A stretch of DNA of 32,279 bases from Bacillota bacterium (GTDB taxonomy: Bacteria; Bacillota; Sulfobacillia; JAJZYS01; JAJYTV01): positions 1 to 32,279 of the forward strand of contig JAJZAT010000034.1 in assembly GCA_021799275.1 (NCBI GenBank), read 5' to 3'. How positions within the stretch are numbered: the stretch's first letter is position 1; every line of letters begins with the position of its first letter. The notes below the pieces were generated by a model. That model was not told where the DNA came from. It did not search any database and saw only the letters and a list, made by a program, of their open reading frames with translations. Position numbers and translations under genes: made by a program. Positions 6,418 through 31,936 of this stretch are shown here, one piece after another.

Positions 6418-7326
6418 TCAGAGACCGGCGCAGTAGCGCATGCTGCGCTCCGCCTCCTCGGCCGACAGGCCCCGCGGATCCGTCTCGAGCACCGTCAGGG
6501 TCTCGGGGTGCGAGCGAAGAACCAGGCGCGCGATGGCCGCCGCCGGGGTGTAGCTCCCGTCCCGCTCGTGTTCCGGGAGCGGCGGCAAGTGGTTTTGGCG
6601 CCGCTCCCAGCACGCTCCATGCAGATGCACATGCCGCGTGAAGTCGAGCCAGCGCCGGGTGTAGCCGAGCGGGTCGCCGCCGTGCTGACGGGCGAGCAGG
6701 CCGAGCCGTCCCGTGTCGAGGCAGAGATCGAGGCCCCCGTGGGCGGTGAAGAGCGCCGCGCAGAGATCCCGCTCCGGATCGGGATCGAACCAGACGCGGT
6801 TCGGCCCGTCGAGCTCCAGGACGACCCGCAGGCGGAGCTCCCGGGACACCGCCTCGAGCTCCGCGAAGATCTCCTCGGAGAGGCCCGCGAGGCGCTCCCG
6901 CGGCCAGAGCCGCTCCTCCTGAGCCGTGGGCGGGATCTTCCAGCCGAGAGACTCGTAGGGCACGGCCCGGTCGACGAGGGCGGGCCAAGGATAGTGGAAG
7001 AGGATGTAGGACGCGCCGAGTTCCTTCGCCTGCACCATCGCCCGTTGCGCCGTACGCCGCGCTTCCTGGCGCACGGGGCTCTGCGGCGCGAGCCAGAAAG
7101 GCGCCCAGTCCCAGGCGTGGGCCTGGACCAGCGGATAGTGCACGCCCAGGATCCAGCCGCGGCGCAGGGTCTCGGCGGCCGCCTCCGCGGCCGCCTCCCG
7201 GCTCTCGAGAAAGCCGATCTCCGCCCCTGCCCAGAAGGGACTCTCGAGGTCGTGGCCGTACGGTGTCGTAAGACGACCGCCCCGCCGGACGAGTCGCCCC
7301 TGGATCGGGGCAAGAAGCCTCGCCAA
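6418..7326 (-). CDS. Xylose isomerase-like TIM-barrel protein
   Basis: A 302-residue TIM-barrel protein of the AP-endonuclease-2/sugar isomerase superfamily. The likely start is the TTG at 7326, giving MARLLAPIQGRL, with GGAGGAGG just upstream. Barrel strands are seen at ILGVHYPL, ASYILFHYP, RVVLELDGPN, LDLCLDTGRLG, HVHLHGA and TVLETDP. The carboxylates and histidines at strand ends (Glu in LELDG, Asp in CLDTG, His in HVHLHG, Glu in LETD) fit a divalent metal site. The start lies close to the stop of the upstream guanidine-modifying-fold gene, so it is the third gene of a small operon. Family members isomerise or epimerise sugars or cleave ring compounds. The substrate here is unknown. Confidence 0.72.
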   Translation of the reverse strand: MARLLAPIQGRLVRRGGRLTTPYGHDLESPFWAGAEIGFLESREAAAEAAAETLRRGWILGVHYPLVQAHAWDWAPFWLAPQSPVRQEARRTAQRAMVQAKELGASYILFHYPWPALVDRAVPYESLGWKIPPTAQEERLWPRERLAGLSEEIFAELEAVSRELRLRVVLELDGPNRVWFDPDPERDLCAALFTAHGGLDLCLDTGRLGLLARQHGGDPLGYTRRWLDFTRHVHLHGACWERRQNHLPPLPEHERDGSYTPAAAIARLVLRSHPETLTVLETDPRGLSAEEAERSMRYCAGL

Positions 7327-7345
7327 CTGCCCGCCTCCTCCGCCG

Positions 7346-8278
7346 CTACACCGGATCGCGACGCAGGAAGCCGGTGCAGCAGTGCACGGAGCCGCCACCG
7401 CGCAGGATCTCGTCCATCGCCACGAGATGCACCTCGACGCCATGGCCGCGCAGCAGTGCGAGCGTTTCGGGGAAGCCCTCCGCCATGACGACCACCCCCG
7501 GCGCGACGGTCACGAAGTTCGTGCCGAGCCGTCCCACCTCATCGAGGTCCTCCTGCACCATCAGCTCGAAGCCGCGCGCGAGGAGCGCAAGCCGGAGATC
7601 CCAGGTCAGAAGCCAGGGCGCGACGACGATGCGGCGGCGGTCCACGGGCGAGATGAAGCCGTCGACGTGGATCTGGCCGTAGGGCACCGCGACCGGCAGG
7701 ATGTCCGAGACCCCCATCCCCCTCAGTTCCCGCTCCACCTGCTCGGCGCCGGCCTGATTCGTCCGGCTCGAGGTTCCGAGGAGACAGGTCTGCCGGTCCA
7801 GCCAGACGACGTTCGACCCCTCGAACGTGCCCTGGCCGTTCACCGTCTTGAGGATGGGCACGCCGAGCGCGGCCAGGGTGGCGGCGACCGCCCGCTCCTC
7901 GCCGCGGCGCTGGCGCGTCGCGGGACGGGCGAGGATGGCGCCCTCCGGCGTCATCGTGTAGAGGTCGCGCATGTAGACGGCGTTCGGCCGATCCGCGACC
8001 TGCCCCTCGACCAGGCGCACCGAGACGCCCAGCCGCTCATACGTCTCGCAGAGGCCGTCGAACTGCCGCAGGAAGCGCCTTTCGTCGATCGGGGCGTCGT
8101 AGAGGTGGTCACGGTAGCCCTCGCCCGACACGAGCCCCAGTTCCGGACCCGGACGGTGCATCAGCACCGAGCGCAGCCGACCGACCTCGGAATCGACGTA
8201 GAAGTCGCCCCAGAGGCGGTCCTGGTCCTGCGCGAAGGTGGCGGGATCGGGCAGCCAGCGATCCCCCTCGACGCGCAT
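7346..8278 (-). CDS. Amidinotransferase/deiminase-fold enzyme (PF02274-type, arginine deiminase/DDAH-like)
   Basis: A 310-residue protein of the guanidine-modifying superfamily. It shows the family landmarks in order: NAVYMRDLYTM with Asp105, GTFEGSNVVWLD with Glu153, LGTSSRTN with Arg172, the catalytic His204 in GQIHVDGFIS, and the nucleophilic Cys in GSVHCCTG near the C-terminus (residues 300-301). These enzymes hydrolyse or transfer the amidino group of arginine, methylarginine or similar guanidines. It lacks the N-terminal and C-terminal signatures of agmatine deiminase (AguA), so it is a different branch. The start codon shares one base with the stop of the upstream AguB-like amidase, showing tight coupling. 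A deiminase making an N-carbamoyl product for the amidase is the simplest reading. Confidence 0.85.
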   Translation of the reverse strand: MRVEGDRWLPDPATFAQDQDRLWGDFYVDSEVGRLRSVLMHRPGPELGLVSGEGYRDHLYDAPIDERRFLRQFDGLCETYERLGVSVRLVEGQVADRPNAVYMRDLYTMTPEGAILARPATRQRRGEERAVAATLAALGVPILKTVNGQGTFEGSNVVWLDRQTCLLGTSSRTNQAGAEQVERELRGMGVSDILPVAVPYGQIHVDGFISPVDRRRIVVAPWLLTWDLRLALLARGFELMVQEDLDEVGRLGTNFVTVAPGVVVMAEGFPETLALLRGHGVEVHLVAMDEILRGGGSVHCCTGFLRRDPV

Positions 8279-9105
8279 CAGCGGGGACCCTCAGAGATCT
8301 CGCGATAGAGCGAAGGGCGCCGGTCCCCCTGGAACGGCCATTCAACGCGGCTTTCCTGCACCTTCCCCAGATCGATCTCGACCGCGAGGGCCACATCCTC
8401 GCCCTCGACCGCGGCGACCACCTCGCCATCCGGTCCGACCACGAGGCTGTCGCCGCCGAACATGTAGCCGCCGCTCTCCATGCCGATGCGGTTCACCGTC
8501 GCGACGAAGCAGTTGTTGGCCATCGCATTCGCCGCAAGGGTCGTCCGCCAGCGGCCCAGGGAGTAGTCGCCCGAACCGCGTGGCGCCAGGATGACCGCCG
8601 CGCCCTTCAGGGCAAGGATGCGGCTGCCCTCGGGGAAGAGGTTGTCCCAGCAGGTCTGGACGCCCAAGGTGGTGCCCTGGTGGCGGAAGACCGGGAAGCC
8701 GAGATCGCCCGGCTCGTAGTAGTACTTCTCGTACCAGCCCGGGTGGTAGGGCACGTGGTTCTTGCGGTAGCGCATCAGGATGTCGCCGTGCTCCGAGAGG
8801 ACGAACGTCGTGTTGAAGCGCCGCTCGCCGCTGCGCTCGTAGATGGGCACCGCGAGGGCGATCCCCGCCTCCGCCGCTATGGCGCGCATGCGGCCGAGCG
8901 TCGGGCCGTCCTCGTCCTCCGCGAAGGCGAACGCCCGGCTGTCTTCCCCCGCGGCGACCCAGGGCAGCGGGAACAGCTCGGGCAGAAGGGCGATCGACGC
9001 TCCTTGCCTGCGCACGTCGCGGAGGAGGGTCTCGGCTTTCTCGAGGTTCTCGGCCACCGAGACCGAGAGGTTCATCTGCACGAGTCCAAGGACGAGCCGC
9101 GCCAA
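8278..9105 (-). CDS. Carbon-nitrogen hydrolase, N-carbamoylputrescine amidase-like
   Basis: A 275-residue nitrilase-superfamily amidase with the complete Glu-Lys-Cys triad: Glu43 in LLPELFPLPW, Lys115 in YRKNHVP and Cys152 in QTCWDNLFPE. The segments YRKNHVPYHPGWYEKYYY and PGDLGF closely resemble N-carbamoylputrescine amidohydrolases (AguB), which release CO2 and ammonia from an N-carbamoyl amine. Start is TTG at 9105, giving MARLVLGLVQMN as expected for the family; AAGGAG lies about 10 bases upstream. It is the first gene of a three-gene minus-strand operon with the deiminase-fold protein and the TIM-barrel protein. The exact carbamoyl substrate is inferred, not shown. Confidence 0.86.
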   Translation of the reverse strand: MARLVLGLVQMNLSVSVAENLEKAETLLRDVRRQGASIALLPELFPLPWVAAGEDSRAFAFAEDEDGPTLGRMRAIAAEAGIALAVPIYERSGERRFNTTFVLSEHGDILMRYRKNHVPYHPGWYEKYYYEPGDLGFPVFRHQGTTLGVQTCWDNLFPEGSRILALKGAAVILAPRGSGDYSLGRWRTTLAANAMANNCFVATVNRIGMESGGYMFGGDSLVVGPDGEVVAAVEGEDVALAVEIDLGKVQESRVEWPFQGDRRPSLYREISEGPR

Positions 9106-9207
9106 ATCCGTCGCACTCCTTCGCGCTCACTCTGGGGACAGGCCTCATCCTTCGCCAGCGACGGCCGAGAGCCTGCCGGGGTGCGGCACGCCCGGTCCAA
9201 AGAAGCG

Positions 9208-9239
9208 CGAGGCGCCCGCCCAAGCGGGCGAGCGCCTCG
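9208..9239 (-). terminator. Hairpin terminator downstream of the REC-GAF-kinase gene
   Basis: CGAGGC and GCCCGC pair with GCGGGC and GCCTCG around a CCAA loop, with a 4-base bulge (GAGC) on one side. It lies 21 bases beyond the stop of the kinase gene as read on the minus strand and is followed there by CTTCTTTGG, a weak T-rich stretch. It would insulate the amidase operon that begins at 9105. Confidence 0.6.
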
Positions 9240-9259: not shown

Positions 9260-10867
9260 TCAGCGCGGCATCGGCGCCGTCAGCAGGATCCGCGCCCCCT
9301 CGTGCGGCCGGCTGTCCACCTGCAGCCGGCCACCGGCCAGCCGCGCGCGTTCCTCGAGATGGCGGCGGCCATGGTGGCCAGGCGGCGAAGGCTGGCTCGT
9401 GTCGAAGCCGACGCCGTCGTCGTCGATCATCAGCTGGAACTCGTCGCCCACCCGTCGCCAGGTCACGTCCACCCGCGTCGCCTGGGCGTGGCGCGCCACG
9501 TTGCTGAGGGCCTCCTGCGTGAAGCGCGCCAGGTGCTCCACCGTCTCCTCCGGCAGCTGCGTATAGGACATGTCGGAGGAATGGATGCGCAGCTTCTCGC
9601 CGAGGCCGAGCTCCTGCGCGATCTCCTCCACCGTGCTCATCAGCGGGCGCGCGTCGGACTTGAGGTCGAGCACGTAGCGGCGGATCTCGTCCGTCACCTC
9701 CCGCAGCCGCTCCGCGAGGCGGTTCACCGCATCGTAGGTGCGGCTGCCTTCCGGCATCTCGCCGAGCAGCGCGTCGAGCCCGAGCAGGACCGAGTAGATC
9801 GTCTGCAAGGTGCCGTCGTGCAGGTTCATGCCGATGCGCTGGCGCTCCTCCACAACGGCCAGCCTGCCCAGGTCCTCGTTGAGGCGCTGGTTCTTCACGA
9901 GGACGGCGCCCAGGCTCGCGAGCAGGCCGACAAGTTCCTCGTCCTCGGCCGAGAACGCCTCGCCACCCCGCTTGTCGGTCATGTAGAGGTGCCCCACCAC
10001 CTCGCCGTGGACCAGCATCGGCATGCCGAGGAAGGTGCGCATCGGCGGGTGGCCGGGCGGCCAGCCGGAGGCCCGCGGATGTGAAGGGATGTCGTTGACG
10101 CGCAGGGGCCGGCGCGTATGGATCACCTCGCCCAGAAGCCCTTTGCCGCGCGGCAGGGCCCCCATCGCCCGCATCTCCCCGGGCGTCAGCCCCTCCGTGA
10201 GGAACTGGGCGATCGACTCGTCCGGCAGCAGCACGGCGAGCGCCGCGTAGCGCGCCCCGGTCAGCTCGCGGGCCAGGGAGAGCACCCGCTGCAGCATCTC
10301 CTCGACGCTGCGGATGCCCGCGATGGCCGTCATGCCCTGGTAGAGGCTGTGCACGCGCTCGCGGTAGCGCTCGAGGCGCTCGTTGCCGACGCCCTGGCCC
10401 CCGACCTCCCGGAAGTGCTGCAGCACCGCCTGGCCCATGCGCACGTCCCAGACGACCTCGCCCTGGCGCACCCGCCGGATCGCGTCGACGATGTCGCGGC
10501 CCCTGGCCTGCTTGATCAGAAAGCCTGTGGCTCCCGCCGCCAGGGCCTGCAGCAGCAGGGCGGCATCGGTGGAGCCCGTGAGCATCAGGACCCGCACCTC
10601 GGGCAGCCGCTCCCGCGTCCAGGCGCAGAGATCGAGGCCGGATTCGCTCTTCAGCCGACTGTCGAGCAGCATCACGTCCGGCCGCAGCGCTGCGAGCCTG
10701 CTCTGCGCGTCGCCAATCGAGCTCGCCTGACCCACCCAGCTGAGGTCGCTCTGGTCCGAGATGATCTGCCTCAGTCCCTCGAGCACACCCTGGTGGTCAT
10801 CGACGCCGAACACGCGGATCGGGCCACTGGCCCCGTCCGCCGCGGTCCGGGACGACCCGTCCGCCAC
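9260..10867 (-). CDS. Hybrid sensor: receiver-GAF-histidine kinase (DevS/NarX-type HisKA_3)
   Basis: A 535-residue protein with an unusual order. Residues 17-135 form a response-regulator receiver (VFGVDDHQG acidic pair, phospho-acceptor Asp69 in PDVMLLDS, Lys119 in GFLIKQ). Residues about 180-330 form a GAF domain with PPGHPPMRTFLGMPM, very like the GAF of DevS/DosT. Then comes a HisKA_3 helix with phosphorylatable His350 in EERQRIGMNLHDG, and an HATPase with an N box (EALSNVARHA) and DDDGVGFD. There is no membrane segment, so it is cytosolic. No DNA-binding regulator is fused or adjacent, so its output partner is elsewhere. Start is GTG at 10867 behind GGGGGAG. It lies downstream of the MMPL gene, same strand, 188 bases apart. 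The signal is unknown; heme or gas sensing is possible by similarity. Confidence 0.9.
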   Translation of the reverse strand: MADGSSRTAADGASGPIRVFGVDDHQGVLEGLRQIISDQSDLSWVGQASSIGDAQSRLAALRPDVMLLDSRLKSESGLDLCAWTRERLPEVRVLMLTGSTDAALLLQALAAGATGFLIKQARGRDIVDAIRRVRQGEVVWDVRMGQAVLQHFREVGGQGVGNERLERYRERVHSLYQGMTAIAGIRSVEEMLQRVLSLARELTGARYAALAVLLPDESIAQFLTEGLTPGEMRAMGALPRGKGLLGEVIHTRRPLRVNDIPSHPRASGWPPGHPPMRTFLGMPMLVHGEVVGHLYMTDKRGGEAFSAEDEELVGLLASLGAVLVKNQRLNEDLGRLAVVEERQRIGMNLHDGTLQTIYSVLLGLDALLGEMPEGSRTYDAVNRLAERLREVTDEIRRYVLDLKSDARPLMSTVEEIAQELGLGEKLRIHSSDMSYTQLPEETVEHLARFTQEALSNVARHAQATRVDVTWRRVGDEFQLMIDDDGVGFDTSQPSPPGHHGRRHLEERARLAGGRLQVDSRPHEGARILLTAPMPR

Positions 10868-30740: not shown

Positions 30741-30841
30741 TGTGGGTTGTGGCGATGGGGGCTGGACAATTCGCAGCAGGGCTTGTATCCTAGCGTCGGC
30801 ACCTACCGGATGAGGTAGAGTGGCGGTGATCGAGCGACTTG

Positions 30842-31936
30842 ATGGAGAACAGGCCGATGCGGCTGTGCCCCGAGCAGCAGAAGGACCTTGAGCCATGGGT
30901 CCGCGGTCAGCGAGTTGAGTATCGCCTGAAGATCCGGGCGACGATCATCTGGCAACTGCTCGTGGAGGGGATACCGGAGTCGGATGTGGCGCGTGACCTG
31001 AATGTGACGCTGAAGACTGTCTGCAAATGGCGCCGGCGTTACCTGTCCGGAGGCCGCGAAGCCCTGCGTGACCGCTACCGCAGTGGCGCTCGTGGCAAGT
31101 TCGATGTCGGACAGCGCTGTGAAGTCATCGCCATTGCTTGCGATGACCCAAAGAATTATGGCTGTCCAGAGGGCACGCGCTGGACGCTCGACCGGCTTGT
31201 GCAAACAGCTGCCGAGCGTGTGGACGGGCCCAGCATGAGCCGGTCCAGCATCCAGCGCACCCTGACTGAGGTCGACCTGCGGCCGCACAAGGTGCAGATG
31301 TGGCTGCACAGCCCAGACCCGCAGTTCAAGGAAAAGGTCAACGACGTGGTTGGCCTGTACCTCGATCCCCCGCAGGGTGCTGTGGTCCTGAGCGTGGACG
31401 AGAAGACGAGCATCCAGGCACTCGAGCGTCCCCACGCGACCAAGCCGGCGCTACCGGGGCGGCCGGGCCGGCAGGAGTTCGAGTACGTACGCCACGGAAC
31501 CACCTCCCTCTTGGCGAGCTTCAACATCCAGTCGGGCGAGGTGCTGCACCGCCTCGGCCCCACCCGTACGGCCGCCGACCTGCTCGCCTTCATGGACGAG
31601 GTGGCCGACCACCATCCCGAGGCCGAGAAGATCATCGTCATCTGGGACAATCTGAACATCCACCATGAGGGCCCATCGCTGCGCTGGAGCGAGTTCAACA
31701 CCCGCCACGAGGGCAAGTTCGAGTTCCATTACACGCCGCTCCACGCCTCGTGGGTGAACCAGGTGGAGGTATTCTTCTCCCTTCTCCAGAAAGCCGTGCT
31801 GCGCTGGGGCAGCTTCCGCTCCGTCGCCGAACTCGAGGCGGCGCTCGTGGGCTTCATCGAGCGCTGGAACGGTGGCCAAGGCCACCCCTTCCACTGGGCC
31901 TTCCGCGGCTATCCTCTGCAAGCAAAGGCGGCGTGA
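30842..31936 (+). CDS. IS630-family DDE transposase
   Basis: A 364-residue transposase. The N-terminal part is a bipartite helix-turn-helix (DVARDLNVTLKTVCKWRRRYL, then SRSSIQRTLTEVDLRP). The catalytic DDE residues are Asp186 in LSVDEKTSIQA, Asp269 in VIWDNLNIH and Glu309 in NQVEVFFSLL, with the usual spacing of about 83 and 39-40. The ATG at 30842 gives the longest ATG-led protein; ATG at 30857 is also possible because GGAG lies 9 bases before it, and a TTG at 30839 precedes both. The reading frame is unbroken. It acts on the inverted repeats to cut and paste the element into TA-containing targets. Confidence 0.93.
   Translation: MENRPMRLCPEQQKDLEPWVRGQRVEYRLKIRATIIWQLLVEGIPESDVARDLNVTLKTVCKWRRRYLSGGREALRDRYRSGARGKFDVGQRCEVIAIACDDPKNYGCPEGTRWTLDRLVQTAAERVDGPSMSRSSIQRTLTEVDLRPHKVQMWLHSPDPQFKEKVNDVVGLYLDPPQGAVVLSVDEKTSIQALERPHATKPALPGRPGRQEFEYVRHGTTSLLASFNIQSGEVLHRLGPTRTAADLLAFMDEVADHHPEAEKIIVIWDNLNIHHEGPSLRWSEFNTRHEGKFEFHYTPLHASWVNQVEVFFSLLQKAVLRWGSFRSVAELEAALVGFIERWNGGQGHPFHWAFRGYPLQAKAA

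Follow-up and report, generated by a model that had tools for sequence, protein, structure and literature searches.

A genus-restricted gene trio pairing a short arginine-deiminase-like protein with a nitrilase-family amidase in Bacillota

Organization of the Locus

The window, that is, the whole stretch of 32,279 nucleotides analysed here, carries three consecutive genes on its minus strand, named AMID, DEIM and TIM in this order. AMID (8278..9105) encodes a C-N hydrolase of the nitrilase superfamily with 275 aa and a TTG start, DEIM (7346..8278) encodes a short arginine-deiminase-like guanidino-modifying enzyme with 310 aa and an ATG start, and TIM (6418..7326) encodes a xylose-isomerase-like TIM-barrel protein with 302 aa and a TTG start. 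The AMID stop and the DEIM start share a single base at position 8278 (TGATG), and DEIM and TIM are separated by 19 bp. Likely ribosome-binding sites, conserved in relatives, precede AMID (AAGGAG, 9116..9121, minus strand) and TIM (GAGGAGG, 7334..7340, minus strand). An earlier note had described an amidase and a PF02274-type enzyme overlapping by one base, followed by a barrel protein with a TTG start, and the open reading frames, the TGATG overlap and the GAGGAGG motif confirmed all of this. A longer TIM start at 7443, as listed by the ORF finder, would overlap DEIM and is not likely; the TTG at 7326 is preferred.

Upstream of the trio lies a gene (9260-10867) encoding an N-terminal response-regulator receiver, a GAF domain and a NarL-type histidine kinase (HisKA_3/HATPase). 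It is kept in this place throughout the genus, behind a terminator-like hairpin of 14 pairs, 12 of them GC (9208..9239, minus strand), which stands between the kinase gene and AMID. Since this hairpin sets the trio off from the kinase gene, AMID, DEIM and TIM probably form a single transcript. Genes for a GT87-like protein and an acrylyl-CoA reductase follow downstream as part of the conserved neighbourhood. As judged from translations only, an IS605-type OrfB and a resolvase gene are located at 3-1576 and an IS630-like transposase at 30839-31936; repeated elements probably mark both ends of the contig.

DEIM, a Deiminase-Fold Protein With Arginine Deiminase Residues

DEIM matches PF02274 with 77 bits and gave no match to PF04371 (AguA), which upholds the earlier suggestion that the deiminase differs from AguA. 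Its scores against curated models stay below their cut-offs, with 70.9 bits for TIGR01078 (ArcA; cut-off 489.1) and 82, 60.8 and 47.9 bits for the dimethylargininase models NF045658-NF045660 (cut-offs 300-450); the best NCBIfam match is a DDAH model, far below its cut-off. When a profile built from 22 relatives was compared with solved structures, arginine deiminases (ADI) came closest (8.6e-29), followed by bacterial DDAH (1.7e-25) and, in third place, 2-nitroimidazole nitrohydrolase, with the dihydrolases Sll1336/Alr4995 far behind (8e-7).

The active-site residues of ADI align with N99, R104, D105, R124, R125, E153, R172, H204, D206 and C300 of DEIM, which are invariant or nearly so and also match the canonical ADI encoded elsewhere in this genome. 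DEIM thus shares with ArcA (EC 3.5.3.6) the catalytic Cys/His/Glu (C300, H204 and E153), both guanidinium-binding Asp residues (D105 and D206) and the Arg residues that, from established knowledge of ADI, we take to bind the substrate carboxylate. Both Asp, located in the motifs YMRD and HVD, are invariant in the 22 sequences, and Asp206 of HVD aligns with ADI Asp280. Two such Asp mark guanidino-acting members of the superfamily, while the putative citrullinase CtlX has Asn (PMC9007349). Because Asp is kept at both positions, unlike in CtlX, DEIM is predicted to act on a guanidino group. A CtlX-type citrullinase, which belongs to the same superfamily and likewise concerns a citrulline/ornithine pathway, was ruled out for DEIM by the same two residues (YMRD and HVD versus FPNN and HTN).

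Besides these likenesses, ArcA proteins are about 410 aa long and have an alpha-helical domain inserted in the core (PMC11659421), whereas DEIM has 310 aa and lacks this domain, the insertion of about 77 residues in the genome's own ADI being missing. The second Arg of the ADI C-terminal loop is absent too. On account of both absences, DEIM may prefer another guanidino acid. DEIM also stands outside the arcABC operon, which is found separately in the same genome.

Gene neighbourhoods were compared across 80 named DEIM-family loci. In 21 of them, an amino-acid ABC transporter of the arginine type was located within 3.5 kb of the DEIM relative, and in none beyond 4.5 kb; argH (argininosuccinate lyase) was near it in one (L113), and an arginase-family ureohydrolase was directly upstream in three (L083, L084 and L125). 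Such neighbours point to arginine as the substrate. The ureohydrolases (L125:8055-9945, L084:1669-3739 and L083:7968-9966), from Bacillota related to Sulfobacillus, carry an unusual GDCTH in place of GGDHS, and the ureohydrolase-DEIM arrangement may be regarded as a second putative pair of guanidino enzymes. Tandem DEIM paralogues occur in 24/80 loci (L087-L103, L126, L138-L146 and others); in Bacillales they frequently surround an ABC transporter of the arginine type and an amidohydrolase.

AMID, an Amidase With a Rebuilt Pocket

AMID matches PF00795 with 179 bits. Its best curated model is AguB (TIGR03381; 206.6 bits, under the cut-off of 410.25), and its best relative in the PDB is the Medicago N-carbamoylputrescine amidase (MtCPA; PDB 5h8i-5h8l), a member of the same fold family. 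Residues E43, K115, C152 and E126 align with E48, K121, C158 and E132 of MtCPA, leaving the Glu-Lys-Cys-Glu catalytic set intact. The features that make MtCPA selective for N-carbamoylputrescine have been described: a narrow hydrophobic pocket, and Glu187, which holds the distal amine of the substrate (PMC4812014). In AMID, by contrast, the Glu187 loop is deleted and the pocket is altered by Y54W, Y130W, Q161N, W162L, T182R, A183G and I184S, a set common to the orthologues of the genus; the canonical AguB pocket was retained in all 12 of the AguB-like proteins compared across Bacillota (L173-L184). AguA (PF04371) was not found in any of the 10 nearest genomes. Judged by its residues, AMID is set apart from canonical AguB, because the pocket including Glu187 is lost and AguA is absent. 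It is best described as a divergent AguB-like amidase. A larger or differently charged ureido compound would fit AMID better, and R176 is a candidate carboxylate-binding residue. Near the active site, the confidence of the AMID structure model was too low for it to be used.

In Francisella, the nitrilase-family enzyme AguB/Ctu is reported to convert citrulline to ornithine, CO2 and NH3, and the genome also encodes arginine-like deiminases of about 304-307 residues (PMC9251427). At the level of the enzyme family, AMID resembles AguB/Ctu. AguB/Ctu is paired with aguA and also accepts N-carbamoylputrescine, whereas AMID has an ADI-like partner and a rebuilt AguB pocket.

TIM, a Putative Sugar Isomerase-Like Barrel

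TIM scores 29.6 bits against PF01261, slightly under the cut-off of 31.1, and a sequence search of the PDB returned no match, both of which distinguish it from known xylose-isomerase-like barrels. Its structure model, of fair confidence (pLDDT 73.6, pTM 0.80), places it in the same fold: the top matches, which include D-tagatose 3-epimerases and TTHB071, all belong to the xylose-isomerase-like superfamily (2.3e-7 in Foldseek; in VIA-align, Z 17.8 and rmsd 3.2 across 231 residues). In the putative Glu-Asp-His-Glu metal site, E171, D204 and H234 are conserved in the family, while E281 is kept within the genus and replaced by Gln or Asp in distant relatives. A CbiR-like role was rejected (17.5 bits versus a cut-off of 105).

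Beyond the genus, the nearest relatives of TIM (about 40-44% identity; genomes G035, G066, G083 and G097) cluster with genes for S-methyl-5'-thioadenosine (MTA) phosphorylase, adenosylhomocysteinase and an MTA/SAH-deaminase-like amidohydrolase. In G090, a remoter relative has MTA phosphorylase, an MTA/SAH-deaminase-like amidohydrolase and AdoMet decarboxylase nearby. In loci L054, L055, L057, L058 and L061, TIM relatives lie in a conserved cluster with mtnP, an mtaD-like gene and mostly also ahcY. The earlier note had suggested that the barrel may handle a sugar-linked or cyclic product. Going by association, TIM may be connected with the metabolism of polyamines or MTA; the genome to which the window belongs encodes MTA phosphorylase on a different contig from the trio.

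Conservation and Distribution of the Trio

Orthologues of the three genes in L073, L074 and L075 have equal lengths and no internal stops, and dN/dS is 0.11-0.22 for AMID, 0.12-0.15 for DEIM and 0.21-0.24 for TIM. All three genes are under purifying selection. The AMID-DEIM-TIM order is found in five of the six species of the genus (G000-G004), i.e., in four of the five besides the window's own, and the surrounding neighbourhood is largely conserved among them. The TGATG overlap is present in all five genomes with the trio and, like the ribosome-binding sites, is conserved in named relatives (L073-L076 for the overlap). In the sixth species (G005, 99% complete), DEIM follows directly behind the kinase gene and AMID is absent; DEIM and TIM each lie at a contig end, and these ends do not overlap. 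AMID is likewise absent from all genomes of the genus g2, most of which retain DEIM. In one genome, partial second copies of AMID (60%; G001:C117:2-388) and DEIM (72%; G001:C194:12448-12585) were noticed at contig edges, possibly indicating a second operon or contamination.

Outside the genus, none of the further genomes of the class that were sampled had the trio. Among the 80 named DEIM-family loci, AMID or TIM adjoins DEIM only in four known members of the genus (L073-L076), and wide conservation of the trio was rejected on this basis. Apart from the genus orthologues, no full-length AMID relative above about 42% identity was detected in 100 relatives, 398 genomes of the phylum and a plasmid collection. 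The plasmid collection yielded no TIM relatives, and viral contigs yielded no AMID relatives. Within the genus, the named records are entries assembled from metagenomes and labelled 'Bacillota bacterium' and 'Clostridia bacterium'; the next closest DEIM sequences outside the family include Sulfobacillus records (65-67%). A 100-aa C-terminal remnant of TIM (about 63% identical; L072:7885-8187, in G008), probably a pseudogene, lies in an unrelated neighbourhood and suggests loss of TIM in the sister genus.

Recurrence of the trio in other genomes, which the earlier note had made one touchstone of its proposal, was thus seen across most of the genus but not beyond it. Because, in the loci and genomes searched, AMID and TIM adjoin DEIM only in this genus and AMID is without close full-length relatives elsewhere, the trio is a genus-level innovation around a widespread deiminase.

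Proposed Pathway and Alternative Explanations

The reading we lean toward, at slightly less than even confidence, is that DEIM and AMID together would take arginine, or an alpha-amino acid closely resembling it, by way of citrulline or a ureido acid to ornithine or the corresponding analogue in an ATP-independent manner. The single-domain DEIM would hydrolyse the guanidino group via Cys300, releasing NH3 and citrulline or the matching ureido acid, and AMID would hydrolyse this product via Cys152, taking citrulline to ornithine, CO2 and NH3. The net reaction would be arginine to ornithine, CO2 and two NH3, with ATP neither made nor used. The two NH3 and the CO2 set free in this way could contribute to nitrogen supply; alternatively, the benefit may be proton consumption in what look like acid-habitat bacteria. 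TIM would be a metal-dependent sugar isomerase/epimerase-like protein co-expressed with the two enzymes. The earlier proposal that a guanidino compound could be turned in two steps into an amine, CO2 and ammonia fits the catalytic residues of both proteins, although the evidence favours an arginine-type substrate over agmatine, since DEIM has the ADI-type Asn/Arg/Asp and AMID lacks the N-carbamoylputrescine pocket. The gene layout, catalytic residues, AguB-pocket loss, ADI-residue retention, purifying selection and genus restriction can be read from the sequences; the substrate, the coupling of both reactions, the physiology and any part of TIM are inferred.

The main objection to this pathway is redundancy. 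The same genome contains a canonical arcA-arcB-arcC operon (G000:C15 39663-43405, L002) encoding a 411-aa ADI with the helical domain, OTC and carbamate kinase, and G000-G004 all carry full arcABC and arginase-family genes, so a second arginine route would be superfluous. A citrullinase would also drain the citrulline used by these routes. In addition, DEIM without AMID in G005 and g2 counts against coupling. Both arcC and AMID are present in G000-G004 and absent in G005 and G006, a parallel that spans too few lineages to carry weight. Redundancy would be relieved if the substrate of DEIM were not arginine itself but a modified form or similar guanidino amino acid (such as methylarginine, hydroxyarginine, D-arginine or homoarginine), with AMID hydrolysing the corresponding ureido acid or some unrelated amide; the two would then form a scavenging operon, apart from mainstream arginine use. 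This explanation, which we consider rather unlikely and yet almost as good as the arginine reading, also draws on the DEIM profile, in which bacterial DDAH ranks only just behind ADI, on the sub-cut-off DDAH model that tops the NCBIfam matches, and on the tandem DEIM paralogues, which suggest differing substrates; the alignment of Asp206 with ADI Asp280 and the ordinary arginine genes adjoining DEIM relatives argue against it.

It is improbable, though less so than the two readings considered below, that AMID and DEIM share a transcript and not a pathway, AMID having been placed next to DEIM in an ancestor common to some species of the genus and acting on a different amide. The lineages in which DEIM mostly persists without AMID, and the ureohydrolase, transporter or nothing that occupies the place of AMID elsewhere, are consistent with such an insertion, but the one-base overlap kept in every trio genome, the purifying selection on AMID and the complementary chemistry of the two enzymes speak for a functional link. 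A route from agmatine via N-carbamoylputrescine to putrescine with an alternative agmatine deiminase is very unlikely: it would explain why AguB is the best curated model of AMID, but that score is barely half of the cut-off, Glu187 and its pocket are lost, no AguA relatives occur in the nearest genomes, and DEIM keeps carboxylate-binding Arg residues that agmatine would not need. The canonical AguA/AguB pathway was itself rejected on the sub-cut-off score, the absence of AguA and the lost pocket. Least probable of all is that DEIM, as an ArgZ/AgrE-like dihydrolase, gives ornithine directly and AMID serves something else. Dihydrolases belong to the same superfamily, but the similarity of DEIM to Sll1336/Alr4995 is very weak beside that to ADI, and they carry Asn where DEIM keeps Asp105.

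Implications for Arginine Breakdown in Bacillota

Only one earlier bacterial citrullinase, Francisella Ctu, was named when CtlX was proposed in 2022 (PMC9007349). Bacterial citrullinases are thus barely known. In the boldest version of the arginine reading, which we regard as doubtful, AMID would be the founding member of a new group of genuine citrullinases, different from both CtlX and AguB/Ctu, and would be translationally coupled to an ADI free of the helical domain, in a complete ATP-independent arginine-to-ornithine operon whose third member, TIM, would be linked to polyamine/methylthioadenosine metabolism. More soberly, members of known enzyme superfamilies are paired here in a way that is new and confined to one genus; one partner is plausibly a new citrullinase-like amidase, and the departure from established routes of arginine breakdown is modest. 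The operon would provide a clean test case for an ATP-free alternative to arcABC. The pocket of AMID illustrates that similarity-based AguB labels can hide other specificities, and a wide subfamily of deiminases associated with transporters of the arginine type comes into view in Bacillota.
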